This document shows, in pieces, positions 1-34,772 of a stretch of DNA of 34,772 nucleotides (the first letter of the stretch is position 1; each line of letters begins with the position of its first letter). Position numbers and translations under genes: made by a program. The stretch covers positions 1-34,772 of IMG/VR virus record IMGVR_UViG_3300025093_000007; one strand, written 5' to 3'. The notes beneath the pieces were generated by a model. The model saw nothing but the letters and a program-made list of their open reading frames with translations. It was not told the origin of the DNA and searched no databases. Source of the stretch: a virus.

Positions 1-127
1 GTCCGGAATTAAGTCTTTCTTGTTGTATTTGCGTCGTTTAAATAGCTTCATTTCGATTTTTTTCAAAGATAGGGAAAATTGATCAACGGAATTTGACGAA
101 ATCGTGATTGAAGGTCCAAAGGAAATA
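1..127. repeat. Terminal direct repeat, left copy (circular assembly overlap)
   Basis: These 127 bases are identical to 34646-34772. They contain the last codons and stop of the large terminase gene, the short gap after it, and the first codons of the next gene (ATG at position 51 on the minus strand). An exact 127-nt overlap is what a short-read assembler leaves at the ends of a circular contig when the largest k-mer is 127, so I read it as an assembly signature of a circular or circularly permuted genome and not as a biological terminal repeat. Confidence 0.9.
64..71 (-). promoter_or_regulatory. TAnnTTTG-like -7 box ahead of the virion genes
   Basis: The minus strand reads TATCTTTG here, matching the TAnnTTTG -7 consensus of Bacteroidota promoters. 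It lies between the terminase stop (83) and the ATG at 51, 12 nt before the start codon. A TTG is found 12 nt upstream of the box, closer than the usual spacing for a -33 element, so only half of the promoter consensus is present. It is the natural place to start transcription of the tail and head genes. The same box is repeated at 34709-34716. Confidence 0.4.
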
Positions 128-1360
128 TCGAAAACAATCAAGAAGGTGACTTTTTCGCGCGTCTTTTGTCTTGTTGATTTCGCCGGTTTCCGTTGCTTCA
201 ACGGTTTCCAGGTCTTCAATTAGATACATACAACCGGCGTCAACCTGGAAATCGTTGTGATTCGAAAGAATTGAATTGCACAAAACGCGTGAATTCTTGA
301 TCGACGGATTGACGGAAGGAACGCGGAATTGATTCTTTGAAAGGTCCAATTCGTCACGAATGATCGTGTAATAGTTTAAAGCGCCTTTTGTGATCGCATT
401 TCGGGCCGATCCGGACGCGTCACCGGTCACAAGGAAGTAAACGTCACCGAATTCGACGCGGATCGCTTCACAAAGCCGGTAAATGTCACTATTACGAAGG
501 CGGAATTCCTTGAAGATCCGGATCCGGTCGTCGTATGATTGCCCTGCAATACATGTGATCGGATCAACGTTGAAGTCAAACGACAAGATAATCGGTTCCG
601 AATGATCAATTTGAACGCCTTTTGTGACGGTTTTCCGCTTGTCGAACGCGTAAAGGAACGGCCGGTCAATGTCAAGAACGTTCCAATCGCCGCGAACGAA
701 GACGGCCTTTGTCACTTCGTCAAGATTTTCCAGGCCTTCAAGATATTCTTCCGGAAGTGAAGGATTGTCGTTCATTGTGGCCCGAAGATAGAAGTAATCG
801 TCACGAAGCGTCTTGTCGATATACGGTTCGTGAAATTCGTGTTTGGTCCAATTGTTCGACGGATTGCAAGTCGTAAGGATTAACGGTTTCGGTTGAAGAT
901 CCAGGTCCGGAATAATATGTCGGCCGGCCCGAAGTTTACATTTTTCGAAGGTCTTCTTTTGTATTTCTTGACCTTCTTCGATCAAGAATCCGTTTGCTTC
1001 GATTCCGTCAAACCTGGTCAAGTTCTTGTCTTGATTGTAGTTTTCCGGAAAGAACGTCAATTGACTTCCGTTTCGGAAGGTGACGATTTGATCGGTTTGA
1101 TTGTACGATTTGATAAAATGTCGCGGACATAACTTCAAGAACGACGGAATTGTCGTCCGTTTAAGCGTCGGAAGTGATTCACGGACCACAAACCAACGTG
1201 AACCAGGAAAGATCTTCGCTAATAGTACAAATATCGCCAAGCAAACGTATGTTTTGCCGCCGCCGGCCGCGCCGCCGTACATTAAACAACGGTATTTGAA
1301 GGAAAGAACGGCTTGAATGAATTCTTCTTGCTTCTTGTGTGGTTCGAAAATAACGTTCAA
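83..1360 (-). CDS. terL: Terminase large subunit (packaging ATPase-nuclease)
   Basis: This is the DNA-packaging motor: it translocates phage DNA through the portal and cuts concatemers. The N-terminal ATPase domain shows a Walker A motif (GGAAGGGKT, about residues 29-37) and a Walker B motif (FLIEE, about 125-129). The C-terminal RNase H-like nuclease shows the expected acidic residues in SFDFNVDP (about 267-274), GDASG (about 315) and LLDCFRYF (Asp near 408). The reading frame is open back to 1435, but that would overlap the small subunit by about 80 nt. I prefer the TTG at 1360, which overlaps the TGA stop of the small subunit (TTGA) and gives 425 aa, a normal length for the family. The amidase gene here uses the same TTGA arrangement. 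The terminase closes the replication block, and the tail genes follow directly across the circle junction. Confidence 0.95.
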   Translation of the reverse strand: MNVIFEPHKKQEEFIQAVLSFKYRCLMYGGAAGGGKTYVCLAIFVLLAKIFPGSRWFVVRESLPTLKRTTIPSFLKLCPRHFIKSYNQTDQIVTFRNGSQLTFFPENYNQDKNLTRFDGIEANGFLIEEGQEIQKKTFEKCKLRAGRHIIPDLDLQPKPLILTTCNPSNNWTKHEFHEPYIDKTLRDDYFYLRATMNDNPSLPEEYLEGLENLDEVTKAVFVRGDWNVLDIDRPFLYAFDKRKTVTKGVQIDHSEPIILSFDFNVDPITCIAGQSYDDRIRIFKEFRLRNSDIYRLCEAIRVEFGDVYFLVTGDASGSARNAITKGALNYYTIIRDELDLSKNQFRVPSVNPSIKNSRVLCNSILSNHNDFQVDAGCMYLIEDLETVEATETGEINKTKDARKSHLLDCFRYFLWTFNHDFVKFR

Positions 1361-1908
1361 AACTTGATTGTTTGATTGCCTATCCGGAAGACTTGCGGTT
1401 CGGTTTGGGTGTCGGTGAATTTGTCGTCGTTCCAATTGGCCGGATCAACGTTCTTCAATGCAAATATTATCGCGGCGGTTGCCGGCGGAATGTACCTTGA
1501 TTTTTTCCGCGTCCTGGTCGATACAAGGCGGCCTTTGTTGTCGGTCAACCGTTCGATTTCTTCTTCGTCAACGAAATAACCGGTAATTAAGCGCTTTAAA
1601 CCATGCAAAGCGACGTCGCGGACGCCTTCACGGTTTGCGCGGCCGTTGTTGTCCTTTGCTTCTTTTTTTAATACTGAAATTTCCGAATATTTTCGCGCCC
1701 AATTTTCAAGCGTTCGCGCGGTGATTCCTTCTTCTGCGCAACATGATTCGAGTGTATAATTGCCGGTTGAATATAGTTCACAAATCTTTTCGGCCTTCTT
1801 GACCTTTTCGGCCTTCGATCGAAGGTTCGCGGACGTTTTCTTCTTCTTCTTGTCTTCCGGTTTGATCTTCGGATCCTGGTCAAACGTCTTTTTTTGTCCG
1901 CGCTTCAT
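1357..1908 (-). CDS. terS: Terminase small subunit (DNA recognition)
   Basis: The 183-aa product lies immediately upstream of the large terminase and overlaps it by 4 nt, the classic position of the small subunit that recognises phage DNA and regulates the motor. A lysine-rich N-terminal 35 residues is followed by a helix-turn-helix-like segment at about 48-75 (AEEGITARTLENWARKY). The C-terminal part contains PPATAAIIFALKNVDPANW, typical of small terminases of this type (tolerance of alanine, isoleucine and 'LKN-DP-NW'). The ATG at 1908 lies inside the end of the previous gene (29-nt overlap). The assignment rests on context plus these motifs. Confidence 0.85.
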   Translation of the reverse strand: MKRGQKKTFDQDPKIKPEDKKKKKTSANLRSKAEKVKKAEKICELYSTGNYTLESCCAEEGITARTLENWARKYSEISVLKKEAKDNNGRANREGVRDVALHGLKRLITGYFVDEEEIERLTDNKGRLVSTRTRKKSRYIPPATAAIIFALKNVDPANWNDDKFTDTQTEPQVFRIGNQTIKF

Positions 1909-11196: not shown

Positions 11197-11613
11197 TTAT
11201 TGCTCAATATCGAAGTGCTTCAAAATGAAATAAAGTAGTACATGAGCAATCAAGGCCGAAGGAATCAACCAAAAGAAGGAAAGATTCCAAAAATACCAAT
11301 ACACAACAAAGACCAGGTTCGCGACATAAACGTTCATGCAAATCGTACAAGCGCCAAGCGGTTTATACAGAAACCGAAACGGATTCTTCTTGTTCTTGTA
11401 AAAATATTTGTTCAAAAACCGGATCCAAAAGGCGAAGATATTTCCTTCGCGAAACGTGTAATCCAGGAAGAACGAAGCAAGCGCCGAAACCAATCCGACA
11501 AGACCGGCTTCAAAAACCGGCCGGAACCAATTGAAATCTTTGACGAAAAACGTCGCCGTCAAACCGGCCAAAATTCCAAGAAGGAAGAAGGCCCAAATTT
11601 TAAAATTTTTCAT
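11197..11613 (-). CDS. Polytopic membrane protein, 138 aa
   Basis: About four hydrophobic helices are visible: residues 5-25, 32-52, and two in the C-terminal third (VANLVFVVYWYFWNLSFFWL and IPSALIAHVLLYFIL). A CTIC pair (PLGACTICMN) sits just before the third helix. The frame extends upstream to 11709, but the ATG at 11613, right after the upstream stop and an A11 run, is the better start. It is the last gene before a strong terminator. It could be a second holin-like or other membrane-active protein; the CxxC pair is unlike classic holins. No firm family. Confidence 0.6.
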   Translation of the reverse strand: MKNFKIWAFFLLGILAGLTATFFVKDFNWFRPVFEAGLVGLVSALASFFLDYTFREGNIFAFWIRFLNKYFYKNKKNPFRFLYKPLGACTICMNVYVANLVFVVYWYFWNLSFFWLIPSALIAHVLLYFILKHFDIEQ

Positions 11614-11621
11614 TTTTTTTT

Positions 11622-11936
11622 TTAACAATTTCCAACTTCCGACCGGACCAAGAAAACGCAAGCGCCGCCGGGTGAAGTGATATAATTGAATCCTGGTTGC
11701 GGCGTACAAGGCGCGATTTGTGGAACCTTAATTTTGATTTTGATTTCGCCGGATTCGGTGAAGTTATTTGTCAATACAATGTCGGCGCCGCCGGCAAACG
11801 TCACCGTTTCACGGACCGTCAATCCGCGCGAAGTTATTTCGAATATATAGTCGCCGTCACAATACGCGACGACGCCGAAATCAATCACGTCGCCAGGTAG
11901 AAAACAACCTAAATCTTCATTACAATTACAATTCAT
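11622..11936 (-). CDS. Small Cys-rich hypothetical protein, 104 aa
   Basis: The product starts MNCNCNEDLGCFLPGDVIDF and is otherwise beta-rich (DYIFEITSRGLTVRETVTF, GEIKIKIKVPQI), ending in VRSEVGNC. Seven cysteines, clustered at the ends, and the all-beta look suggest a small secreted or virion-associated beta-sandwich. The frame extends to 12098 upstream, but the ATG at 11936 (10 nt after the upstream stop, A-rich leader) is more likely. The function is unknown; position after the adhesin-like gene suggests a virion decoration or fibre accessory. Confidence 0.55.
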   Translation of the reverse strand: MNCNCNEDLGCFLPGDVIDFGVVAYCDGDYIFEITSRGLTVRETVTFAGGADIVLTNNFTESGEIKIKIKVPQIAPCTPQPGFNYITSPGGACVFLVRSEVGNC

Positions 11937-11946
11937 TTTTTTCGTT

Positions 11947-12216
11947 TTAAGTGATTTTTGTTGACGCGCTAAATTCGGATAATTGAAGAATTTGACCTTC
12001 AATGAAGGCGACGTCCGGAAAGTCGTTCGCCTGGAAGACAACGTCAAGCAAACGCGTAATATTTGAATTTTCGTCCGTCCAATGAATGATAACTTCAAAC
12101 GTGTGATTTGAAGCGTAAAAAAAGAATTGATCGACGGTCCAATCCGGATTGATCAACGCGATTCCGTCGGCGGTCGTATAATTGGCGTTTAGCTTGTATT
12201 TGTTGAAGTGCGACAT
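11947..12216 (-). CDS. Hypothetical beta-rich protein, 89 aa
   Basis: The short product starts MSHFNKYKLNANYTTADGIA and is dominated by aromatic-rich strands (WTVDQFFFYASNHTFEVIIH, LLDVVFQANDFPDVAF). No signal peptide or catalytic motif. It lies between two other small proteins downstream of the probable adhesin, and a TAnnTTTG box sits at 12222-12229 just before it. It may be a fibre- or tail-associated small protein. Confidence 0.55.
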   Translation of the reverse strand: MSHFNKYKLNANYTTADGIALINPDWTVDQFFFYASNHTFEVIIHWTDENSNITRLLDVVFQANDFPDVAFIEGQILQLSEFSASTKIT

Positions 12217-22861: not shown

Positions 22862-24736
22862 TTAAAGTGTTTCTTGTGGTCCGGTTCCGGATTCAACCAT
22901 TTTCGCCGCCGTTGCGAAATCAATTCCGTAAATGGATTGAAGAATCGTTTCGCCGGATTCTTCGGTCATTGATCCTTCGGAAACGGCCTTGTTGATTTCG
23001 ATAATTCCTTGAACGCCGCCGACGGATCCGCGAATCCTGGATTGTGCTTCAAGTTTTCGTTCGTCTTCAATGCTGATCGAAGGCGCTTGATCATAAAATT
23101 GAACAAGACCTTGTTCCATTCTTGCAAAGATCACGTTCAACGAATTTTCAAGAAATTCGGTTCCTTCCGAAGAAATAATTTCGTTCAATACCTTATATGC
23201 AAATAATGATTTGACAATATCTTGCTTTTTAATCGTTCCATTCGCAAGTAAAATCGCTTTGTCGGCCGTTTTAACGTGATAAATTGGATCGAAGGCAACC
23301 AAGACTTCAACCATTCGAGTTATTGCCTTATTTCCGCTAAATCGTTTTTTTGCAAGATCCTTCGCCGCTTCAACCTGGAAGGCAACCGGCGCGTTCTTGT
23401 CGGACAATTGATTTATTTCTTCGATCAATCCTTCTTCGGTCTTTGTTCTAAAAGAAATCGGCTTGATCACAACCGGATCGACCGGATTGTTTATTTCCCG
23501 GTATTTTTCCAGGTACAACAAAGACTTGAAAATTATTTCGTCGAAGACATTGTTAGAAATCTTCGTGATCATCGCGTCCGATTCTTCGCGGTCGATTTCC
23601 TTCGCTTTGCCGGATTGACTTTCGTCGGTGAAAACCAGGTGAAGCGCGTCTTCGGCTTTTCGAAGAAGTGTTTCCCATGCTTCGCCGGAATATTTGATAA
23701 TATCAACCGGCGGCGATACGAAGCGAACAAGCGGTCCAGGATCGCCGTTGTTGTTTTCAAATACGTTTGATCCTTTTGATCGAACAAAAACGCCGTAAGG
23801 GCCGCGCGCGAAGACTTGTCCGGTTCCTTTGCAAACGTCGCAATTTTTGTGACTTTCGGTTTCACGGTCGAAAACGATTCCGTCGCGACAACCTTTTGCG
23901 CTACATGTTTCGGCTACTTCTTCACGATACGGAAACGCGGACATTGTCATAACGCCTTGCCAGTCGGAATATTGTCGAATCGCTTCGTTGCCGAACGGTA
24001 CAAAGGGCGAAAAGTAACTTTCAAAGTAATCTTCCGGCGTCGGATCGCCGCCGTAAACGATCGCCGGAACGGTTCCGATATTGTGTTGATAAACTTCAAT
24101 CAAATCGAAAGTTTTATCGCCGGAATTGCCGCGTTGAACATGTTCGTAAAAACCGAAGCGCGTCAAGGTCTTGTAAATGTCACCGGACCAAGATTCAACG
24201 CCGCCGACGCGGATCTTTGATTTCCTTTTGTCGTCTTTCCAGGTGATCACGTCTTTCGATATATAGTGAATTTGATCGGAAGAAACCAATTCGCCGCGAA
24301 CGTCTATTTTGACCGAAGGATTGACCAATCCTTCACCGGTCGGAATCCAGGCGACGACGCCGTTCGGATCTTCGATCATGGATCGCAAGACGTATTTTTG
24401 AATAAAGCCGATAAAGTGTTCACCTTTGAACGTCGCGCCGGAAAGATATTCGTCCAATTGATCGGAAACCTTGATTGAATAATTCGCGCTTTGAAACATG
24501 CGGAATAATTTGTCGATTGCTTTGTTCATAGCGCCTTTTGTGATAGGTTCATAGGCGTTCAACCTATATTCAAAGACTTCTTCGGCTTCATTTGGTCGCC
24601 TTGTGTTCAATAACTTTTCCGGAATCGCGCCGCGTGTGTGGACAAACATTTCATCTTTGACCTGGTTCCATTTTCTTTTGATTTCCATTTCCGGAAAACC
24701 TAAGAATTCGGCGTGATATTTTTCAATTTCGATCAT
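22862..24736 (-). CDS. Portal protein
   Basis: The 624-aa product has the size of a siphovirus portal, the dodecameric ring through which DNA passes. It starts with helical segments (EAEEVFEYRLNAYEPITKGA), has the beta-rich central part (FDLIEVYQHNIGTVPAIVYG), and a helical C-terminal half (EEGLIEEINQLSDKNAPV). It is immediately followed by the MuF-type gene, as expected. An unusual insertion at about 278-306 has four cysteines in a zinc-knuckle arrangement (Cys278, Cys283, Cys299, Cys302) ending in CKGTGQ. The ATG sits 3 nt after a 6-nt A/T stretch; the stop precedes the next gene by 3 nt. Confidence 0.85.
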   Translation of the reverse strand: MIEIEKYHAEFLGFPEMEIKRKWNQVKDEMFVHTRGAIPEKLLNTRRPNEAEEVFEYRLNAYEPITKGAMNKAIDKLFRMFQSANYSIKVSDQLDEYLSGATFKGEHFIGFIQKYVLRSMIEDPNGVVAWIPTGEGLVNPSVKIDVRGELVSSDQIHYISKDVITWKDDKRKSKIRVGGVESWSGDIYKTLTRFGFYEHVQRGNSGDKTFDLIEVYQHNIGTVPAIVYGGDPTPEDYFESYFSPFVPFGNEAIRQYSDWQGVMTMSAFPYREEVAETCSAKGCRDGIVFDRETESHKNCDVCKGTGQVFARGPYGVFVRSKGSNVFENNNGDPGPLVRFVSPPVDIIKYSGEAWETLLRKAEDALHLVFTDESQSGKAKEIDREESDAMITKISNNVFDEIIFKSLLYLEKYREINNPVDPVVIKPISFRTKTEEGLIEEINQLSDKNAPVAFQVEAAKDLAKKRFSGNKAITRMVEVLVAFDPIYHVKTADKAILLANGTIKKQDIVKSLFAYKVLNEIISSEGTEFLENSLNVIFARMEQGLVQFYDQAPSISIEDERKLEAQSRIRGSVGGVQGIIEINKAVSEGSMTEESGETILQSIYGIDFATAAKMVESGTGPQETL

Positions 24737-24747
24737 TTTTTTCTTTT

Positions 24748-25770
24748 TTATTCACAACTAAAATCCGGGAAGCAATCACAACGTTTCAATTCGGTTTCCA
24801 AATACCATTGATTGCCGGTTTCATTATTTTTTTCGACGGATCCTTCCAATTGATATAATTTATTATTTGCGTAAAGATCGCGCGCCGCTAAAATGTTCGC
24901 GATCAATTTGACAATTCTTTCCGGTAATCCGTAAGTAGCAAACGAATAAACTTCACAAGTCGAAGACTTCGTCGCTTGAAGATAACGCGTGACAACGGTC
25001 TTTTCAATTTCAACGGATTGCAATTCAAGCGCACCCCGAACGCGGTATCGGTTGCGATAGGTGAACGGCGTTCCAACGGACCAAACCGTATCACCGTAAA
25101 AATACCCGAAACAATCCAACGTCGAAGCCGGATAAACGCCTTCAAGTAATACGGAAGAATTCAAACAATGATTCAATTGAAACGGTTCGGAACAATATTC
25201 TTCCGTTTCGACGCCGAGTTCGTCGGTTGCAAAGGTAAACTTGAAATAAAAACAATGATTTTCGTCAAAATTTCCGAATCCTTGTGTTATGATTGCGCCA
25301 ACGTCAAAACAAATTTGTTGAATTGATCTATATGTCGAATTTCCTTTGTAATCCGTTAATTCAAAAAGGCCGACGAATTCGCCGCATGTTAAACCTTCGC
25401 CGAAAATCGGCGTGTCGTCGCAACAACGTAAAATTTGATAATTCGCAAACGCGGAATTCCAACCAAAGGAACCAGGCGCCGCCGGATCTGTTCCGTTCAT
25501 GTTGTCCGGTTGCTGAAATTGGACGTGAATTTGATCGTCGGAATTTACGACGTTGAAAAACGGAAGGTCGTTTCCGCACAAATTACAATTCCAGGAATCG
25601 CCGCAATCGCACAAGGTCAAACCGTTATTGACAACCAACGTCGGACATATATCGTCGCCGCAATCAAGCAATTCAAGCGTTCGACAACGTGTGAAGGATT
25701 CATTGTCGGCGCAATCCGTGTAATCGACGGTTGCTTCACAAAATGCTTTATTTCCGAGAATGTAATTCAT
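24748..25770 (-). CDS. Cysteine-rich virion protein, 340 aa
   Basis: I count 21 cysteines in 340 residues, mostly in the first third (FCEATVDYTDC, LCDCGDSWNCNLC) and at the end (RCDCFPDFSCE). The rest is beta-rich with aromatic residues, plus a helical stretch (IVKLIANILAARDLYANNKL). It lies between the Ig-like tail protein and the portal, so it should be a virion part, perhaps at the neck or tail surface. No family is recognised. The Cys could bind metal or form disulfides in an extracellular particle. Confidence 0.65.
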   Translation of the reverse strand: MNYILGNKAFCEATVDYTDCADNESFTRCRTLELLDCGDDICPTLVVNNGLTLCDCGDSWNCNLCGNDLPFFNVVNSDDQIHVQFQQPDNMNGTDPAAPGSFGWNSAFANYQILRCCDDTPIFGEGLTCGEFVGLFELTDYKGNSTYRSIQQICFDVGAIITQGFGNFDENHCFYFKFTFATDELGVETEEYCSEPFQLNHCLNSSVLLEGVYPASTLDCFGYFYGDTVWSVGTPFTYRNRYRVRGALELQSVEIEKTVVTRYLQATKSSTCEVYSFATYGLPERIVKLIANILAARDLYANNKLYQLEGSVEKNNETGNQWYLETELKRCDCFPDFSCE

Positions 25771-25774
25771 TTTT

Positions 25775-28633
25775 TTATTGTTTTATCACTTTTCCGATTC
25801 CGCAAATTTCAAACGTTCCCGGTCCTAATTCGGTCAAATCTACCTTGAAGAACGCGAATCCGGTGACGTTGTCAAAGGTTGAATCAACGTCGAACATTGT
25901 GTCCGAAGACAATTGTGTCAACGGTACAAGCGCCGTCGAAGCATAACTTTCTTCTTCTTCCAGGTTGCCGACGCCGAACGGCGTGAAATCAACCGTTGCA
26001 ATCAAATTCATATTTTCCGGAATTGATTTGTGAACGCGAACGAAAATAAATGTCGTTTTTGTGTAGCAAAACGGACCGGTGATTTCGTCGCCTGGAATCG
26101 CCGGATTTGCTTCGTCCGGATAAAAGAATTTGACTTCGTCCAATCCGCGCGGCGTTTCGCCTTCAAAGTCAAAAGGAACGATCTTCGATCGGAAGACTTG
26201 AACGGCCTTGAATCCGGAAGATACAAGCGAAGACAAATCAAGCGTCAATTGATATTCGAAGAAAATATCTTGACCGGCCCAATCATACGAAGCGCCAACC
26301 GTTGAAATATACGTCGCCGCAAGCGGTCCGGCGTTTGTTCTTGTGTATTTTGTCGTATTGTCCGCGATCAAAACCGAAGCCGGAATCAAATCTTGTTCGT
26401 ATCGGACGCGCGTTTCAAATGCCGTCACGATCTTCGGTTCGGGCAATTCACCGGATCCGCCGTCGCCAACGATAAAAGGCGGATTCAAATTGTTCCAATT
26501 TCCAGGAAAACCGGGCGTTCGTTCGGATCTGTAAGATCCAAAGACAAACGTCGTCGTTTCGCCGGCCGAAGGGAAGTCAATTTCTTCACGATATACCAAC
26601 AAATCAAGCGATTCAACAAGATCAATCCATTCGCCGCCGGGCCTGGTCCAACCAAGCAAAGGAAGACAAACGTCGCGAAACGCGTCGCCTTTTATGTTCA
26701 ATTGTGTTTCAATTCTTTCCTTCATTGTCGGCGTGAAGCAATCGTTCTCAAACGTTTGGTTGTAACCTTGAAAGAAATTCTTGAAGTCTAATTCGCAACA
26801 AATTTCACCCAATGTCGGTTGATCCGTCACTTCGTAAGGGCCGAAAATGAATGAATTCACCAATCGGCCGCCTTCAACATTTGCGTATGGAATCGCGATC
26901 AAATACATTTCTTGTCCAACCGTCAAAGTATTGTTGACGTGCGCGGTCGTTCGATAGGTTAGGCCGCCGATATTTGTCGGCGATATTGAAGGCGATTTCA
27001 AGTGATTGTCGATAATTGTGACGCCTGGATCCGTCAAGATAGATCCGCGCGAAGAATCGTAATTGTCAAGAAAATCAACCGAATTGTCGAATCCGGTCGC
27101 GTCAATCAACCAAAAGACGCAATTCGACAAAGCGAAAAGCGAATCAACTTCGAATTCGATCTTTGTTTCCGACAAGGTTGAAAAGGTTGTCACCGGTGAA
27201 CCGGTTCTTTCCAGGTTCAAAACCGGATTGATCATTTCCGAAGGTCCGTTATATAGACCTTTGTTATAAAAACGCGCGGCCGTTTTTACGGATAAAACTT
27301 CGTGACATGTAAAAGGAACCGAAGCGCCGGTAACTGGATCCGTGACAAGGATTGAAGGATCCAGGCAATAAAACAAGTGACATGTTTTTTTAAACGGCGC
27401 CGTGTTATAGACCGAAGGCGTCGTGTTTGTCAAATTTGTCGTCGCGTTGAAGCTATTTTTCAACAATCGCGCGTTATTTGGAAGCGTCGTCGCGGTCAAC
27501 CAATTGTCAACGTCGGCGGTCAAGTAGAATTCGAATTCAATTGAAAATTCGTTCACCGTCGCGCCTTCGATAAACGTCGCCGAATAATTCCTTTGACTAT
27601 TGCTTGAAGCGCCGGCGCCGGTCAATACCATTGAAGCCGATCCGATTCCGGCGAAATATTCAATATAAAATGAAACCGGCGGAATCGAATCAATGATTCC
27701 GGAAGGATATTTCGCGGCAAAATCACAAAAGTCGGCGAACATTTCCGGATTGAACCAAATTTCAAAACCGTTCGGCATGCCTAAAACATAGAAGAATTCG
27801 AACGTGATCTTCTTCTTTTCACCGATTGCCGCTAAATTGTAACATGATCCGCCAGGATAATCCGAACAAAGACCGGATTCCGGATCAAGAAAATTGTTTT
27901 CCGTGTAATACGTGATATTAGTACAATTAATACAATCATCATAAACAACGGATTCACCGGCCAAACGCGCATTTTGCGCCGTTCCGCAAATGTCAAACGT
28001 CAACAAACAATCTATATTTCCGGCGGTTGTTGGCGCGTAATCAAGATTAAAATTCAAATTTGTTCCGGCCGGTACGGTAAACGGTGAAACCTGGTTCAAT
28101 GAAACGTCGGTACAACCAAGACCGGAAACCGGAAAAAAGGAAAAAAAGATTTCCGTGTCACAAATCGTCGGATTGTTGAAATTGTAAACTTGTTGCGCGC
28201 TTGATCCGACCGGTATTGTTCCAAAATTCACCGTTCCGATTGTCGGCGTGAAATACAAATTTTGATTCAACGTTGTCAAATCGTGGTCGATCACTTGTGT
28301 TCCGCCGCCTGCGTTCGTCCAAGTAATCGAAAGGGAAATCGTGTCCGTTGATCCTATTCCGGAAGGCGCGCAAACGTTGAAAACGATCGCGATTGATCCG
28401 CCGGATCCAAGTGACAAGGGAAGCGGCGGTCCGGTCGGCGTTGTGTACGGCGTTCCGTCAATTGAAACAATGGAAGAAGTATTTCCGCCGGTTGTTGTCA
28501 ATGCAATTGTTGAAATTTGTCGCGTTGATTCGGCCGGTGACAATATCAAATTACAAGAGATTTCACAACAACAACCGTCAAAAAGATTGTTGACGGCCGG
28601 TTGTGGTTGAAGATTGCACCCGGTTAACTGCAT
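25775..28633 (-). CDS. Large beta-rich tail or baseplate protein with Ig-like domains, 952 aa
   Basis: After a Cys-rich start (GCCCEISCN), residues about 30-230 hold two Ig-like domains of the 'choice-of-anchor D' type (VNFGTIPVGSSAQQVYNF is typical), used for surface or tail display. The remaining ~700 residues are a long beta-rich region with several Cys, including ICCELDFKNFFQGYNQTFEN near the middle and EITGPFCYTKTTFIFVRV near the end. Placed after the tail hub-like gene, it is probably a tail-tip or baseplate/fibre protein. No enzymatic motif is seen. Starts at ATG 28633. Confidence 0.7.
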   Translation of the reverse strand: MQLTGCNLQPQPAVNNLFDGCCCEISCNLILSPAESTRQISTIALTTTGGNTSSIVSIDGTPYTTPTGPPLPLSLGSGGSIAIVFNVCAPSGIGSTDTISLSITWTNAGGGTQVIDHDLTTLNQNLYFTPTIGTVNFGTIPVGSSAQQVYNFNNPTICDTEIFFSFFPVSGLGCTDVSLNQVSPFTVPAGTNLNFNLDYAPTTAGNIDCLLTFDICGTAQNARLAGESVVYDDCINCTNITYYTENNFLDPESGLCSDYPGGSCYNLAAIGEKKKITFEFFYVLGMPNGFEIWFNPEMFADFCDFAAKYPSGIIDSIPPVSFYIEYFAGIGSASMVLTGAGASSNSQRNYSATFIEGATVNEFSIEFEFYLTADVDNWLTATTLPNNARLLKNSFNATTNLTNTTPSVYNTAPFKKTCHLFYCLDPSILVTDPVTGASVPFTCHEVLSVKTAARFYNKGLYNGPSEMINPVLNLERTGSPVTTFSTLSETKIEFEVDSLFALSNCVFWLIDATGFDNSVDFLDNYDSSRGSILTDPGVTIIDNHLKSPSISPTNIGGLTYRTTAHVNNTLTVGQEMYLIAIPYANVEGGRLVNSFIFGPYEVTDQPTLGEICCELDFKNFFQGYNQTFENDCFTPTMKERIETQLNIKGDAFRDVCLPLLGWTRPGGEWIDLVESLDLLVYREEIDFPSAGETTTFVFGSYRSERTPGFPGNWNNLNPPFIVGDGGSGELPEPKIVTAFETRVRYEQDLIPASVLIADNTTKYTRTNAGPLAATYISTVGASYDWAGQDIFFEYQLTLDLSSLVSSGFKAVQVFRSKIVPFDFEGETPRGLDEVKFFYPDEANPAIPGDEITGPFCYTKTTFIFVRVHKSIPENMNLIATVDFTPFGVGNLEEEESYASTALVPLTQLSSDTMFDVDSTFDNVTGFAFFKVDLTELGPGTFEICGIGKVIKQ

Positions 28634-28648
28634 GGATTCATATTTTTA

Positions 28649-28656
28649 CAAATTTA
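28649..28656 (-). promoter_or_regulatory. TAnnTTTG-like box before the 952-aa gene
   Basis: The minus strand reads TAAATTTG, again overlapping the upstream stop codon (28654-28656). No well-placed -33 element is seen. Confidence 0.25.
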
Positions 28657-30405
28657 GACAATTCCTTTGACCTTTATTGTTCGGTTTGAAAAGTCAACAA
28701 CTAATTCTTTCGGAACGCCGTTGACAACCGTTCCGGATTTGATCATTTCAATCGTTTTGTTGAAATCAAAATCGCGATATTGTGAGCAATTGAAGACAAA
28801 TTCAAAGTCAAATTCAAAATTCGTCGTTCCTGGAAGACGCGGATTGTCAATGTAATGAAACGACGCGTACAAATTATTTAAACCATTGTCAAACCAAAGC
28901 GGATAATTGAATCGGGCGTCCGCGTCAATGTACTTTCCGTCGATCCAAACCGGGCCGCCGGTGAACGCGTTTCCGTAATTGCGGCGCGTTAAATTGTCGC
29001 CGGTTGCAATACTATCTTTCAAAATCAATAGCTTGTATTGAAAAGCCGTGTGCTGATTCATTAAAAGATAATATTTTGATTCAGAAAATGCACCCCCCCA
29101 AGTCGCATCAAAGGCGCCGTCAAACAAATCGGCAAAAAAGGAATAAATATCAACTTCGACGTCGTCGTCACGAAATCGCGCCGGCGCAAACGGAAGCGAT
29201 ATTTGACGGAATCCGCTTTGAATAGGATTCGGCGGCGAATTCCATTCTTGCAAATAATTGTATCGCGGCGCCGCTTCATAACCGACGTATTCTTGGGCGT
29301 CTTGTGTGTATTCAAACCGGCCGAAAGACGGTCTTTCCTGGTCCAACCATGTGAAGCAAACTTCACCGTTGATCAAATTTCCGTCCGCGTCAAGATCCGA
29401 AGTATTAATCCAGGTCGCCAAATTCAAAAAATAATCTTTGCGCTCAAACAACAATTCCGTTCCAATTATTCGCCAATCCGCATTGAAAACAAGGTTCAAA
29501 TGATCGGTCAATAACTGTTCAAGCGTCAAGATCGGCTCGTTTCCAACGATCAAAGAATAATTTGTCGAAGATTGTTTTCTTCCTTTTTCAACCGGCGCCG
29601 AAAATAAAGCGGTGTTATAGTAAACGGAAGACGCGTCGTTCAATATAGAAGACGAAAAGGTCAATCCGCATTTGTCACAGACGTTTTCAACATAGTCGCG
29701 TACATACGGCGAAGGGTGAAACCGGCCGCATTGAATCATTATTTCTTGAAATTCGTCAACCAAATCAAATAAAAGGTCAAGTGTTGCGCCTGGATTGACA
29801 AAGGCGCCGGAACAATCCGGCGGCGTGACGCCTGGAAGAAGCGTCGCAATCACGGCGATTGCAATACAAATCGCGTAAACAATACCAAAAATCACCGAAA
29901 TCGCAATCGTTACCGGAACCAAGACGCCCAAAATCACCAAATTGAAACCCCAAGCCGCGAAGATTCCGGCAACCTGGATAAACGCCGGACGCGTTTCGAT
30001 ACAATATCGAACGGCCGGTTGATTTCGTGACATGAATCCGGCGTGATCGTCGTAAATTAAGGTTGATTTAACGCAATTCAACGCGGCGTCTTCTTCTATT
30101 ATTTGACATGTGGCCGAACATATCGGTTCGCACCAATCAACGGCGTCGCCACGAATAACGCCTTCAAAAACGGCTTCTTCGCAACATTCGTCGTAAACTT
30201 TTACGTCAATTTTGTTGACAAATCCGTTCGGATCGTCAATCAAGACCGATTTGATCACGTCAAATCCGTCGTCGTAAAACGTCAATTCAGACGAAAACTT
30301 CTTCCGGACCTTGTTGTCTTCGTCGCCGCGTGTGATCGTGACTTCGAATTTTTCGGTTCCTTCGATCCGTCCGGTCAATAATACGCCGTTGAATTCAATC
30401 TTCAT
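28654..30405 (-). CDS. Tail hub/distal-tail-like protein with a hydrophobic hairpin, 583 aa
   Basis: This gene follows the tape measure by 4-nt overlap, the usual site for distal tail and hub genes. The N-terminal ~140 residues are beta-rich with many Cys (DECCEEAVF, WCEPICSATC). Residues about 141-191 form two consecutive strongly hydrophobic segments (AFIQVAGIFAAWGFNLVILG, then a long V/I/A-rich stretch), unusual for a virion protein and suited to membrane insertion during DNA entry. The C-terminal ~390 residues are aromatic and beta-rich (YLLMNQHTAFQYKLLILKDS). The hub role is from position; the hairpin is read directly. Confidence 0.65.
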   Translation of the reverse strand: MKIEFNGVLLTGRIEGTEKFEVTITRGDEDNKVRKKFSSELTFYDDGFDVIKSVLIDDPNGFVNKIDVKVYDECCEEAVFEGVIRGDAVDWCEPICSATCQIIEEDAALNCVKSTLIYDDHAGFMSRNQPAVRYCIETRPAFIQVAGIFAAWGFNLVILGVLVPVTIAISVIFGIVYAICIAIAVIATLLPGVTPPDCSGAFVNPGATLDLLFDLVDEFQEIMIQCGRFHPSPYVRDYVENVCDKCGLTFSSSILNDASSVYYNTALFSAPVEKGRKQSSTNYSLIVGNEPILTLEQLLTDHLNLVFNADWRIIGTELLFERKDYFLNLATWINTSDLDADGNLINGEVCFTWLDQERPSFGRFEYTQDAQEYVGYEAAPRYNYLQEWNSPPNPIQSGFRQISLPFAPARFRDDDVEVDIYSFFADLFDGAFDATWGGAFSESKYYLLMNQHTAFQYKLLILKDSIATGDNLTRRNYGNAFTGGPVWIDGKYIDADARFNYPLWFDNGLNNLYASFHYIDNPRLPGTTNFEFDFEFVFNCSQYRDFDFNKTIEMIKSGTVVNGVPKELVVDFSNRTIKVKGIV

Positions 30406-33400
30406 CGTGTTGCTTTGTTTCGAATTCGTTGATCTTTATATTTCATCGTCGATACGATTCCGGAAATTCCGCGTTCGTCAATGCTTAATTGAAGCCGGTC
30501 TTGTTTCTTAATCGCTTTTTCGATCCGGTCTAATTTCGCATCAAATCCGCTATTTTGAACGACGATCATTTGTTCGTTCAAACCTTGTGTCAAAAACGGA
30601 TTCCGGCCTTTGTGTATTTCTTCAAATAAAGGTCGGAATTTCCTTGTTTTTTCCTGGTTGAAAACGAATTCGCCTTTGTGAACGGTTCCGGCCGATTCGT
30701 ATTTTCCGCCGTCGCCGGTATAACCACCTTCGGCAAATCCGCCGGCCGCCGCTTGTGCTTGTGCCTTCGCTGCAACCAATCCGGCCGCAAGTGCGATCAA
30801 TGTCGCCGCAACCGTGAACGGCGCCGCCGCGCCGCCTTGTGCCGCCGCCTTCGATACGGCAATAACTGAATTTATCACCAATTCAACGGCCGCAAGCGCT
30901 TGTTGCGCCCGGACGAATTTTTCGCGCTTCTTTTGTAGTTCGGACAATCGTTTTTCTTCGGCTTCCAACAATGCGACGTTCCCTTTTTCCGCTAATTCGG
31001 TCGCGCGTTCAACGCGTTTTTCTTGTGCTTCGATCGCCGTGTCCGTTTGTTTTATTTGAAGGTCAATGATTTCATTGATCAATTTTTCGGTTTCCGCGAC
31101 GACGTCTTTGATTCCGTCGATAATTGCGTCCCTTCGTTCTTCTTCGGTTTCTTTCGTGTCTTCAACAATTTCTTTGTTGAAATCTTTGATCTTGTCGTTG
31201 AAGGATTGTCGCGCCTTCAAGATTTCAAGATCCGATTGTTTGTTGATCAATTCGCGTTCTTCTTGTGTCAATCCTTCTTGTTGCAATTCAAAATCGCGCT
31301 TCTTGTTGATTGCTTTGACCGTCAAATCGAATTCTTCGTCAAGATTTGCTTTGATTAATCCTTCGTTGAATCCTAATTCTTGAACAAGAATGTCGCGTTC
31401 CGCCTTTGACGTGGCCCGGATCAAAGATTTCTTCAATTCTTTCCGGTCTTCAAGAAGGCGTTCTTCTTCGTTGTTTAAGACTTCGATTTGCTTTTCAAGT
31501 TCAACTTGTTCGATTTCTGAAATCGTCTTCGCGCGATCCTTTGCGGCGGCTTCACGAAGGTCGGAAATATCTTCTTGCGTCTTAGCGTCGATTTGCTTGA
31601 TCTTTTCGTCCTGGATCAATTTGAAAAGTGCCGCTTCCTTTGCGCCTAATTGACCGGCTTCGCGCGCTTTGTCAACGCGGTCTTTGATCGTATTTCGAAC
31701 GATCACTTTGTCCGCTTCGGCCGCTTGCTTCAATTTGTCGATTTCTTCGTCTAAATTCTTCGGATCAATGAACGTGACGGCTTGTTTTTGCGTTTCAAGA
31801 CGCGCTTTTCGAAGTTCTTTTTGAAGATCTAAAAGAATTGACTTGATCTTTCCAGGTTGAATATCTTTTCCGGAAAACGCGCCGGCGAAATCAAAGTCTT
31901 CGAAATCACCTTCAAGCGCCAACAAAGCGTCTTGAATTCCGAGCAAAGAATTGATTCCTTCTTGTTCAAATTGTTGAAGAAGAAAACCTTCACCAACCGG
32001 ACCGGAAAAAATTCGTTGTTGTTGTTCCCTTGTTAATTGTGCGTTGTTAACTAATACGTTACGAACGCGGTTCGCGGCCTGGTCCGCCGTCAAAAATGAT
32101 TCTTCGAATTGCTTTTTTTGTTCTTCGTTGAATTGCTTGAAGATATTCAAAAATCCTTCCGTGACGCCGCGTTGTTGGATTGTTGGATCCGCCGCCAATA
32201 CGTCACGAAGTTCGGCCGTTGATAGGTCCGCAAGTTTTGTGATTTCGGCGAATGTAGCTTCGGCGGCTTCCTTCGTTTGATCCGGAAGTTTTTGAAACAA
32301 TCCAAGCGCCGCGACGCGTCCGATTGATTCTTCCAGTTTTTCATTTAAGGCGATTTCTTCGGTCAATAACTTCGTGATTTCTTCTTGTTTGACTTGAAGG
32401 AAGATCCGTTCGCGAAGTGACTTGATAAAACCTTGATAGGCCAAATCCAATTGATTGACGAATTTCTTTTCATCGTCAAGGTTCTTCAAGGTCAATCCGT
32501 ATTTGTTATTGATTTCGGTCATTAGATCGGACCGTTGCTTTGAATTGGCGTTTGTGTTCTTCAATTGCGTGATCAAGACCTTCAATTCGGCGCCTTCTTC
32601 GGAAACGCGCTTGATTGATTCTTCGCGGACCGTGTTCAATGCTTGTTCTTTCCTGGATAGATTGTTCACTTCTTCACCAAGTTCGCCGGTTGCAAGTGCT
32701 GCTTCGTCCGCCGAATCGGTGAAATCAAGGAAAAAAGAAGCCGCGATTGACAATCCGGTCAACAAAATTCCGATCGGATTTGACCGAAGGGCCGCATTGA
32801 ACGCGCGTGTCGCAATTGTTCCGGCAATTGTGGCCGCCGTCGCCGCCTTTTGAACGACGTTTTGTGTTCGCATTGTCCGGATATTGAACAACCTTTGCGC
32901 CGCCTGGAATCTTTGAGCAATCGCCGCGCGCCTGGTTGCAAGTGTTCCGATCACCGTTTGAATCCTATTCGCGATTTGTATTTGCGTTTGCCGCGTCAAC
33001 GCGCCGATCAACAACGAAACGGCCGAAGTGAACAAGGCGATTGACTTCCGGTTGTTGTTGAAGAACAATCCGAAGTTTTGAAACGCGTTGACAACCTTGA
33101 ACGCCACTTCAAGAAGCGATTCAAAGACCGGAAGAAGGCCTTGACCGATTTCACGAAGCAACAATCCGAAATTTCCTTGAAGCGTCGATATACGGCCGGC
33201 GGTTGTTTTTGATAGCGCGTCGGTCAATCCGAAGAATTTGCCGCCTTCACCGGTCAACGAAGCGAACGCGGCTTCCAGGTTTGCAAAGGTGATTTGACCT
33301 TCGGATCCTAATTTCTTGACTTGACCTTCGGAAACGCCTAATTGTTTCGCGAATTCCTGGATCACCGGAACGCCGGCTTCGGTCAATTGATTGATGTCTT

Positions 33401-33911
33401 CGGCGAAAAGTGTTCCTTGTACCTTTGCTTTTCCGAAGATCACGGCCAATTCGTTGAAGTCTTTTCCGGTTGCGGAAGATACGTCACCGATTTGACGAAG
33501 TGACGTTTGCAATTTATCGGTTTCAATACCAAACGCAAGAAGCGCTTTTCCGGCTTGTTGTACTTGTTCGGGCGTGAACGGCGTTGAAACGGACAATTCT
33601 TCAAGATCCTTCAAAACCTTTTCGGCTTCCTTTGTGGATCCTAAAAAGGTCGAAAAACTGACTTCCAACTTTTCGAAATCGGCCGCCGCCGTGATTGCTG
33701 ATTTTCCAAAGTTAAACAAGGCGCGTCCGACGGCGATCGCGCCAATTGCCGCGCCGACCTTCTTGATCGAAGCCGTCAATCCGTTGAATTGCTTTTCGGC
33801 TTGTTCGGTATTGTCGCCAATTCCGGCGACGGATCTTTTGACTTCGTCTAATTCCTTGCGAAGTCTTCCGGTTTCGGCTTGTAATCTGAATACAACGTTT
33901 TTAACTGCCAT
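30402..33911 (-). CDS. Tail tape measure protein, 1169 aa
   Basis: This sets tail length and is ejected on infection. The N-terminal domain (about 35-270) matches the TP901-type tape measure core: KKVGAAIGAIAVGRALFNFG, then FSTFLGSTKEAEKVL and the ALLAFGIETDKLQTSLRQIG and FKVVNAFQNFGLFFNNN helices. Two hydrophobic patches follow, then a long charged coiled coil with many Glu/Lys repeats, then a hydrophobic Ala-rich part and a C-terminal GGFAEGGYTGDGGKYESAG segment. At about 1.5 Angstrom per residue it suggests a tail of about 175 nm. It directly follows the chaperone genes, as expected. Confidence 0.93.
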   Translation of the reverse strand: MAVKNVVFRLQAETGRLRKELDEVKRSVAGIGDNTEQAEKQFNGLTASIKKVGAAIGAIAVGRALFNFGKSAITAAADFEKLEVSFSTFLGSTKEAEKVLKDLEELSVSTPFTPEQVQQAGKALLAFGIETDKLQTSLRQIGDVSSATGKDFNELAVIFGKAKVQGTLFAEDINQLTEAGVPVIQEFAKQLGVSEGQVKKLGSEGQITFANLEAAFASLTGEGGKFFGLTDALSKTTAGRISTLQGNFGLLLREIGQGLLPVFESLLEVAFKVVNAFQNFGLFFNNNRKSIALFTSAVSLLIGALTRQTQIQIANRIQTVIGTLATRRAAIAQRFQAAQRLFNIRTMRTQNVVQKAATAATIAGTIATRAFNAALRSNPIGILLTGLSIAASFFLDFTDSADEAALATGELGEEVNNLSRKEQALNTVREESIKRVSEEGAELKVLITQLKNTNANSKQRSDLMTEINNKYGLTLKNLDDEKKFVNQLDLAYQGFIKSLRERIFLQVKQEEITKLLTEEIALNEKLEESIGRVAALGLFQKLPDQTKEAAEATFAEITKLADLSTAELRDVLAADPTIQQRGVTEGFLNIFKQFNEEQKKQFEESFLTADQAANRVRNVLVNNAQLTREQQQRIFSGPVGEGFLLQQFEQEGINSLLGIQDALLALEGDFEDFDFAGAFSGKDIQPGKIKSILLDLQKELRKARLETQKQAVTFIDPKNLDEEIDKLKQAAEADKVIVRNTIKDRVDKAREAGQLGAKEAALFKLIQDEKIKQIDAKTQEDISDLREAAAKDRAKTISEIEQVELEKQIEVLNNEEERLLEDRKELKKSLIRATSKAERDILVQELGFNEGLIKANLDEEFDLTVKAINKKRDFELQQEGLTQEERELINKQSDLEILKARQSFNDKIKDFNKEIVEDTKETEEERRDAIIDGIKDVVAETEKLINEIIDLQIKQTDTAIEAQEKRVERATELAEKGNVALLEAEEKRLSELQKKREKFVRAQQALAAVELVINSVIAVSKAAAQGGAAAPFTVAATLIALAAGLVAAKAQAQAAAGGFAEGGYTGDGGKYESAGTVHKGEFVFNQEKTRKFRPLFEEIHKGRNPFLTQGLNEQMIVVQNSGFDAKLDRIEKAIKKQDRLQLSIDERGISGIVSTMKYKDQRIRNKATR

Positions 33912-33914
33912 GTT

Positions 33915-34265
33915 TTAAGTGTTTGAAGAAGTTCTTTTCGCCGACATTGAAGACTTGACGTTCCGATCGCCTGGATCCGTTGATTCGGCCGCCGCGCTTC
34001 GTTCTTCCATGATCCGAAGCCAAGTCGAAACGGTTGAATAATAACCTTCAATTGACATGTTTTCAAGGTGTGCAATTTCGGAAGGTCTTGATTCACAGAT
34101 CATTTGATTCAATAAATTTATGTCTTCAATATATCGGCCGACATGTTCGCCGACAAATAGCGATTTATTCGGTCGGCGGCCGCCTTGTTTTGTTTCAAAT
34201 ACTTTTGGAAATCGGCTTCTGATAGTTCGGAAAATTTCGTTGTGATAAGGTAAACTCTTGACAAA
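33915..34265 (-). CDS. Tail assembly chaperone, frameshift extension (T-like)
   Basis: This frame is open from about 34297 to the stop at 33915, -1 relative to the upstream chaperone gene, and shows no good start codon in its first part. It reads as real protein (FVKSLPYHNEIFRTIRSRF, then VGRYIEDINLLNQMICESRP and IEGYYSTVSTWLRIMEERS, ending in a Ser/Thr-rich tail). The overlap with the upstream gene includes a U9 run at 34263-34271 suited to -1 slippage, giving a fusion of about 260 aa. This is the G/GT arrangement of many siphoviruses, next to the tape measure. An ATG at 34103 could alternatively give a 62-aa independent product. The first bases listed belong to the frame after the slip. Confidence 0.65.
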   Translation of the reverse strand, partial: FVKSLPYHNEIFRTIRSRFPKVFETKQGGRRPNKSLFVGEHVGRYIEDINLLNQMICESRPSEIAHLENMSIEGYYSTVSTWLRIMEERSAAAESTDPGDRNVKSSMSAKRTSSNT

Positions 34266-34696
34266 AAAAAACTTTTCGCGTCCGAATCACCGTCAAGAAG
34301 ATCTTTTTTCTTTTGCTTCCAGGTTTCCGACGGTTCGGAAGGATCTTCGCCGGCCATTATAAAGTAAATTGACGCCAATTCAAGAAGCGTTTGTTCTTCA
34401 CCAATGAAATCAAGACGGAATTCGATTTCGGCCAATATATTAAACAGACCGACAACGTTTCCGGAATTCGCGTGTTCCTTCATCTTGTCGATCAATTCCT
34501 TCAAGATCGGCTTTGTCAAATTCATATCAGCAAACCTGGTCGCTACTTCGGCCGCGATTGCGCGCTTTGCCGGTATTGACATAATGTTTGAGAATTCAAA
34601 CCAATCGTTGCCTTTGTTGTCCGTGTATATCTTCGTCAAATCGTGGTCCGGAATTAAGTCTTTCTTGTTGTATTTGCGTCGTTTAAATAGCTTCAT
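34118..34696 (-). CDS. Tail assembly chaperone (G-like)
   Basis: The 192-aa product lies where the tail assembly chaperone is found, one gene upstream of the tape measure. It has a basic start (MKLFKRRKYNKKDL), a helical core (LTKPILKELIDKMKEHANSG, LFNILAEIEFRLDFIGEEQT), and a helical C-terminus. The frame is open to a TTG at 34711, but the ATG at 34696 follows the AAAAATCGAAA motif and is the better start. The gene crosses the circle junction: its start copy is also at 51. It carries the slippery U9 run at codons 142-145. The chaperone identity is inferred from position and the frameshift; sequence similarity is not obvious by eye. Confidence 0.65.
   Translation of the reverse strand: MKLFKRRKYNKKDLIPDHDLTKIYTDNKGNDWFEFSNIMSIPAKRAIAAEVATRFADMNLTKPILKELIDKMKEHANSGNVVGLFNILAEIEFRLDFIGEEQTLLELASIYFIMAGEDPSEPSETWKQKKKDLLDGDSDAKSFFLSRVYLITTKFSELSEADFQKYLKQNKAAADRINRYLSANMSADILKT
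34263..34273 (-). promoter_or_regulatory. Probable -1 programmed frameshift site (U9 run)
   Basis: In the chaperone gene the codons read AGT TTT TTT TTG. The nine T at 34271-34263 offer the classic slippery heptamers U UUU UUU and U UUU UUG in frame. The -1 frame is open from here to 33915, whereas it has a stop just upstream, near 34297. Slippage would join the G-like and T-like parts. Confidence 0.65.
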
Positions 34697-34772
34697 TTCG
34701 ATTTTTTTCAAAGATAGGGAAAATTGATCAACGGAATTTGACGAAATCGTGATTGAAGGTCCAAAGGAAATA
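34646..34772. repeat. Terminal direct repeat, right copy (circular assembly overlap)
   Basis: Identical to positions 1-127. It carries the start of the tail assembly chaperone gene with its initiation motif and promoter-like box, plus the last codons of the large terminase gene. The window's two ends should be joined with one copy removed. Confidence 0.9.

Follow-up and report, generated by a model that had tools for sequence, protein, structure and literature searches.

A conserved U-run and an overlapping −1 frame point to a frameshifted G/GT-type tail chaperone pair in a family of uncultured phages

In the window analysed here, a 34,772-nt stretch of phage DNA (IMG/VR record IMGVR_UViG_3300025093_000007), the gene directly preceding the tape measure gene contains a nine-T slippery run and an overlapping open −1 frame. 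We consider it fairly likely that a ribosomal −1 frameshift at this run makes a tail-assembly chaperone pair, G and a G-T fusion, a reading in which we infer both that the slip is ribosomal and how efficient it is. A single start codon would thereby serve the whole pair: most ribosomes would read G to its own stop and yield the shorter protein, and a minority, with Phe-tRNAs on UUU UUU, would slip back one base on U_UUU_UUU and continue in the −1 frame to a G-T fusion sharing its first 144 residues with G. By analogy with lambda, the role of G would then be to coat the tape measure protein, and that of the T part to bring in the tail tube protein.

The G-like gene lies on the minus strand at 34118..34696, with its ATG at 34696 and its stop codon at 34118–34120, and encodes 192 aa; its open frame is conserved across viral contigs. 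The T9 run occupies 34263–34271 on the same strand, in the codons AGT TTT TTT TTG, exactly as an earlier sequence-only reading had described; no other T-run on the record's coding strand reaches eight, the next longest being seven T7 runs. It contains the in-phase slippery heptamer U_UUU_UUU at 34265..34271, and a second possible heptamer, U_UUU_UUG, is formed at 34262–34268 by the U9 run and the next base. From stop to stop the −1 reading frame covers 33915..34286 (minus strand); its lower limit agreed with the earlier reading, and the upper limit given there, about 34297, had to be corrected to 34286. After a slip on the first heptamer the translated portion of this frame would comprise 116 codons (34265–33918) ending at the stop 33915–33917, and the predicted fusion would be 144+116 = 260 aa, so that both product sizes stand as originally proposed. 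Downstream of the slippery site about 145 nt (34118..34264, minus strand) are coding in both frames, and the T-only part, corresponding to the C-terminus of the fusion, takes up 33915..34117 on that strand. The phage's own sequence has no ATG, GTG or TTG in the −1 frame within the overlap, which bears out the claim that this stretch offers no usable start; the first candidates, TTG at 34112 and ATG at 34103, lie beyond the G stop.

Relatives were collected from IMG/VR with G and a profile of it as queries and, in an independent search, with a T-frame profile, which by itself retrieves the family; no relatives by G were found in GTDB prokaryote genomes or among named or cultured phages. The resulting set holds 77 distinct usable loci, including the phage itself, from many metagenomes and with run lengths from U7 to U9, and 51 of these are non-redundant at less than 95% identity. 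The site was recovered both by the G searches and independently by the T frame, and T_TTT_TTT is in phase in every one of the 77 loci. Across 55 aligned loci the seven T are invariant and the wobble positions on either side vary freely; the Phe codons of the slippery site are always TTT, and two other conserved Phe codons are TTC in 54–61% of loci. The −1 frame is open in 51/51 non-redundant loci and the +1 frame in 0/51, and the −1 frame passes the G stop in every locus, continuing 101–236 nt beyond it where the contig is long enough. At the site the open G frame is only 80 codons long in contig 3300016263_000646 (L057 = L124), where G appears to be interrupted upstream.

Such a run and open −1 frame could in principle have arisen by chance or misassembly in a gene with a single frame: homopolymers are error-prone, and contig 3300009136_000394 (L006 = L111 = L191, near L005), which stands outside the 77, has T8 and a broken G frame, most simply explained as an assembly indel or a mutation. 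The comparative data refute this reading, to which we assign a vanishingly small probability, since the same architecture recurs in 77 distinct loci from many metagenomes and over the full range from U7 to U9, and a recoding null, in which the G protein is kept and its codons are redrawn, leaves the −1 frame open in just 3% of draws for the phage and in a median of 2% over the 51 loci.

The distribution of variation within the 55 aligned loci indicates that both frames are constrained. Averaged by frame-0 codon position, diversity is 0.35/0.23/0.60 in the G-only region, flattens to 0.30/0.40/0.42 in the overlap, and becomes 0.28/0.57/0.34 in the T-only region, where the −1 frame's third codon position varies fastest (0.57). 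In the overlap the −1 peptide shows an identity of 0.48 across 19 loci, against 0.43 for frame 0, 0.37 for the +1 frame and 0.22 for the recoded null; the last of these ignores ancestry, and the +1 frame, which measures shared ancestry, is the fairer control. Residues H8, F12, R16, R18 and F23 of the −1 peptide are invariant, and its conservation extends back to the residue immediately following the site, ahead of any start codon. As judged from these alignments, the diversity phases and the identity relative to the nulls show that the overlap is under purifying selection in each frame, the pattern that had been set out in advance as a check on the frameshift, and that an independent start for the conserved T part is absent. 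The homologue comparison of both frames therefore supports the −1 slip to a G/GT-type pair that had been suggested, and the pattern that would have spoken against it, loci without the site in which the second frame has its own conserved start, was not seen among the relatives.

The same observations bear on the reading in which G and T are two separate genes, T beginning beyond the G stop, at ATG 34103 or TTG 34112, with the overlap incidental. The phage and its nearest relatives do have an ATG in the −1 frame 17 nt beyond the first base of the G stop, but this codon is Leu in many relatives, and some loci (L088, L090) have no start codon whatever in the stretch where a separate T would begin. 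With the conserved peptide starting earlier than any start codon, and with the overlap constrained in both frames, we regard a separate T gene with its own start as largely refuted and rejected it as highly improbable.

The slippery site occurs in two designs. The run is U7 in 23/51 and U9 in 28/51 of the non-redundant loci, with a Val or Ile codon following the U7 run and G or A following the U9 run; in the U7 loci the in-phase heptamer is exactly what is left of the run, one of them (L036) carrying one more T 5′ of the run. An approximately 8-bp stem, pairing +14..21 with +81..88 from the heptamer start, is present in all 23 U7 loci and in 4/28 U9 loci, and was not found in the same register in the other 24 U9 loci, the phage included. 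The spacer between the heptamer and this stem is 7 nt, within the 5–8 nt usual for a −1 frameshift stimulator (PMC4066793). Folding of the 85 nt downstream gave a mean z of −4.06 (se 0.33) relative to dinucleotide shuffles for the U7 loci, and −0.43 for the U9 loci that do not have the stem; for the phage the value was +2.1, with no stimulatory structure detected by this 85-nt folding downstream of its own U9. On the 27 stem-bearing loci (23 U7 and 4 U9) RNAalifold picks exactly this stem, and 95.4% of cells are paired in it, a share that does not exceed 49.5% in slid controls, and two pairs show two-sided changes (six cells), figures that refer to dual-coding sequence in loci chosen for pairing in this register, part of the conservation being protein-driven. 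Because of this, the folding score and the spacing are the stronger evidence for the stem. The two inner stems of the long hairpin (stems 2 and 3), in which 83–89% of cells pair with no two-sided changes, are not claimed here, and we also rejected a stem universal to the family, since it is absent in the phage's clade, where individual helices are no better than those of shuffles. We conclude that the conserved stem of the U7 relatives probably stimulates the slip, and that in the phage and most U9 relatives the longer U-run, with its two overlapping heptamers, may do the work alone.

Both features have changed repeatedly. On a protein tree from which the stem-bearing overlap had been excluded, run length changed five times and the stem four times, and wherever both differed between independent pairs they did so in opposite directions. 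We rejected the association of U7 with the stem as proof of a trade-off, there being four to five changes on the tree and a median p of 0.5 in the sign test.

The existence of two designs also bears on the level at which the frame is changed. RNA polymerase might add one base (or drop two) at T9, after which ordinary translation would give the same 260-aa fusion; the U7-plus-stem relatives would then be ribosomal and the U9 relatives polymerase-driven, as for dnaX of E. coli and Thermus. Runs of 9 A or 9 T allow efficient slippage of this kind in vivo, and it is a 9-T run that serves Thermus dnaX (PMC5009743); the run in the phage attains that length. The stem is missing from 24/28 U9 loci and present in 23/23 U7 loci, as this explanation would have it, and the single T8 contig indicates a run prone to indels, whether in the DNA or in its assembly. 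Further points against the ribosomal reading are that no stimulatory structure was detected in the phage and that, in E. coli, U_UUU_UUU shifts far less readily than A_AAA_AAG (PMC5009743). On the other hand, in the U7 relatives the slip would fall at the same position on a shorter run, accompanied by a canonical ribosomal stimulator; the stem is present also in four U9 loci; and polymerase slippage would not need an in-phase heptamer, yet each of the loci retains one. For the phage we therefore hold polymerase slippage, alone or mixed, to be unlikely, if a serious contender; that the family has switched more than once between a ribosomal U7 with stem and polymerase slippage on U9, with the phage being of the slippage type, we hold to be rather unlikely. 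Ribosomal −1 frameshifting is the best-supported reading across the family on comparative grounds: the common mechanism would be ribosomal because U7 is shorter than nine, the heptamer is in phase and the stimulator is at the expected distance. The family offers a natural experiment in which the same product would be made with a short run and a stem or with a long run and no stem, so that run length and stimulator can be compared directly. Should the long-run forms depend on polymerase slippage, homologous genes recoded at different levels would be known from a second case besides dnaX.

The earlier assignment of the gene following G as the tape measure gene was confirmed: it lies at 30402..33911 (minus strand, 1169 aa) and matches Pfam TMP_3 (E=2e-26) and PHROG tape measure families. 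A tape measure gene follows G where the contig is long enough and was located in 73 of the 77 loci. Directly upstream of G, across the terminal repeat, is the gene for the terminase large subunit (83..1435, minus strand; PHROG E=3e-29), which is likewise upstream in 75/77 contigs, the other two ending before that point. The repeat is a perfect direct repeat of 127 bases (1–127 = 34646–34772, position 1 corresponding to 34646), and the record is probably a complete phage genome. The gene order is unusual, running through 1–1908 and 22862–34772 as TerS, TerL, G/GT, tape measure, more large genes and then a portal-like gene (22862–24736), and its TerL–G/GT–tape measure portion is kept in relatives. 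Tape measure and terminase matches to named phages were too weak to name a host, and a Bacteroidota host is only suggested. Elsewhere in the genome the coding strand carries 11 consecutive A (11613–11623, minus strand) near the 3′ end of an ORF at 11622–12098, a possible slippage site.

In pairs of the G/GT type the fusion amounts to a few percent of G, the binding partners are the tape measure protein for G and the tube protein for T, and neither product is found in the virion. The pair described here has the architecture of this type. It is directly upstream of the tape measure gene, with three bases between the T stop (33915–33917) and the tape measure start at 33911; its second ORF overlaps in a shifted frame with no conserved start of its own; a canonical X_XXY_YYZ site is in phase at the overlap in all loci; and purifying selection acts on both frames. 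It departs from the usual, though not strict, order of major tail protein, G/GT and tape measure, the terminase large subunit gene being upstream of it here and in the relatives. Known tail chaperone pairs often have no sequence similarity to one another, and searches of Pfam, PHROGs and PDB sequences gave no significant match to our proteins, known tail chaperones included. The AlphaFold model of G is weak (pLDDT 59) and none of its fold matches reaches significance; a tail assembly chaperone ranks second among them (E 0.31). The model of T (pLDDT 62, pTM 0.28) is too poor to use. We infer the tail-assembly chaperone role of G and G-T from position and architecture, by analogy with the known pairs. 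This would add a putative tail chaperone family that has no recognisable relatives and is so far found only in uncultured phages, whose T part would escape ordinary annotation. Candidate pairs were also noted in two named phages. In Cellulophaga phage phi39:1 (L105, KC821626.1, 2247–2973) gp19 and gp20, annotated as two hypothetical proteins, precede the tape measure and resemble a G/GT pair that was missed in annotation, with an A8 run (CCTATAAAAAAAAGAAGG) as the junction, and in Bacteroides phage BKO1-TP4 (L106, PQ571270.1) CCCTTTT at about 2461, near the end of gp37, with a second frame open into the next stretch, marks a possible unannotated G/GT-type frameshift.

Lambda G/GT resembles the pair in its place directly before the tape measure gene, in drawing two products from a single start through a −1 slip, and in its long G with a shorter T extension that has no start of its own. 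The lambda slippery sequence is GGGAAAG and differs from that of the phage. No sequence homology to the lambda pair was detected, and the phage G follows a terminase gene rather than that of the major tail protein. The lambda site is near the 3′ end of G, whereas the phage has about 145 nt of dual coding after its site (role and ratio of lambda G/GT are reviewed in PMC5009743, as is the site). Phage P2 E/E+E′ makes a −1 slip on T6G, with T7G or T7C in P2-like relatives and no structure found downstream (PMC3091744, PMC3931495), so that the suggestion of the sequence-only reading that a plain U-run belongs to no described family was not right: as in the phage, the slip in P2 takes place on a plain U-run with no downstream structure. 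P2 is, however, a myovirus with a short overlap (37 nt) and no sequence homology to the phage pair was found, and the phage's relatives, unlike P2, combine a U7 run with a conserved stem. The contrast between designs is the one known from dnaX, in which E. coli uses a short site with a stimulator for a ribosomal −1 shift and Thermus uses slippage on T9 (PMC5009743); dnaX is a cellular polymerase gene, whereas the two designs seen here belong to a single phage gene family, the U9 route being putative.
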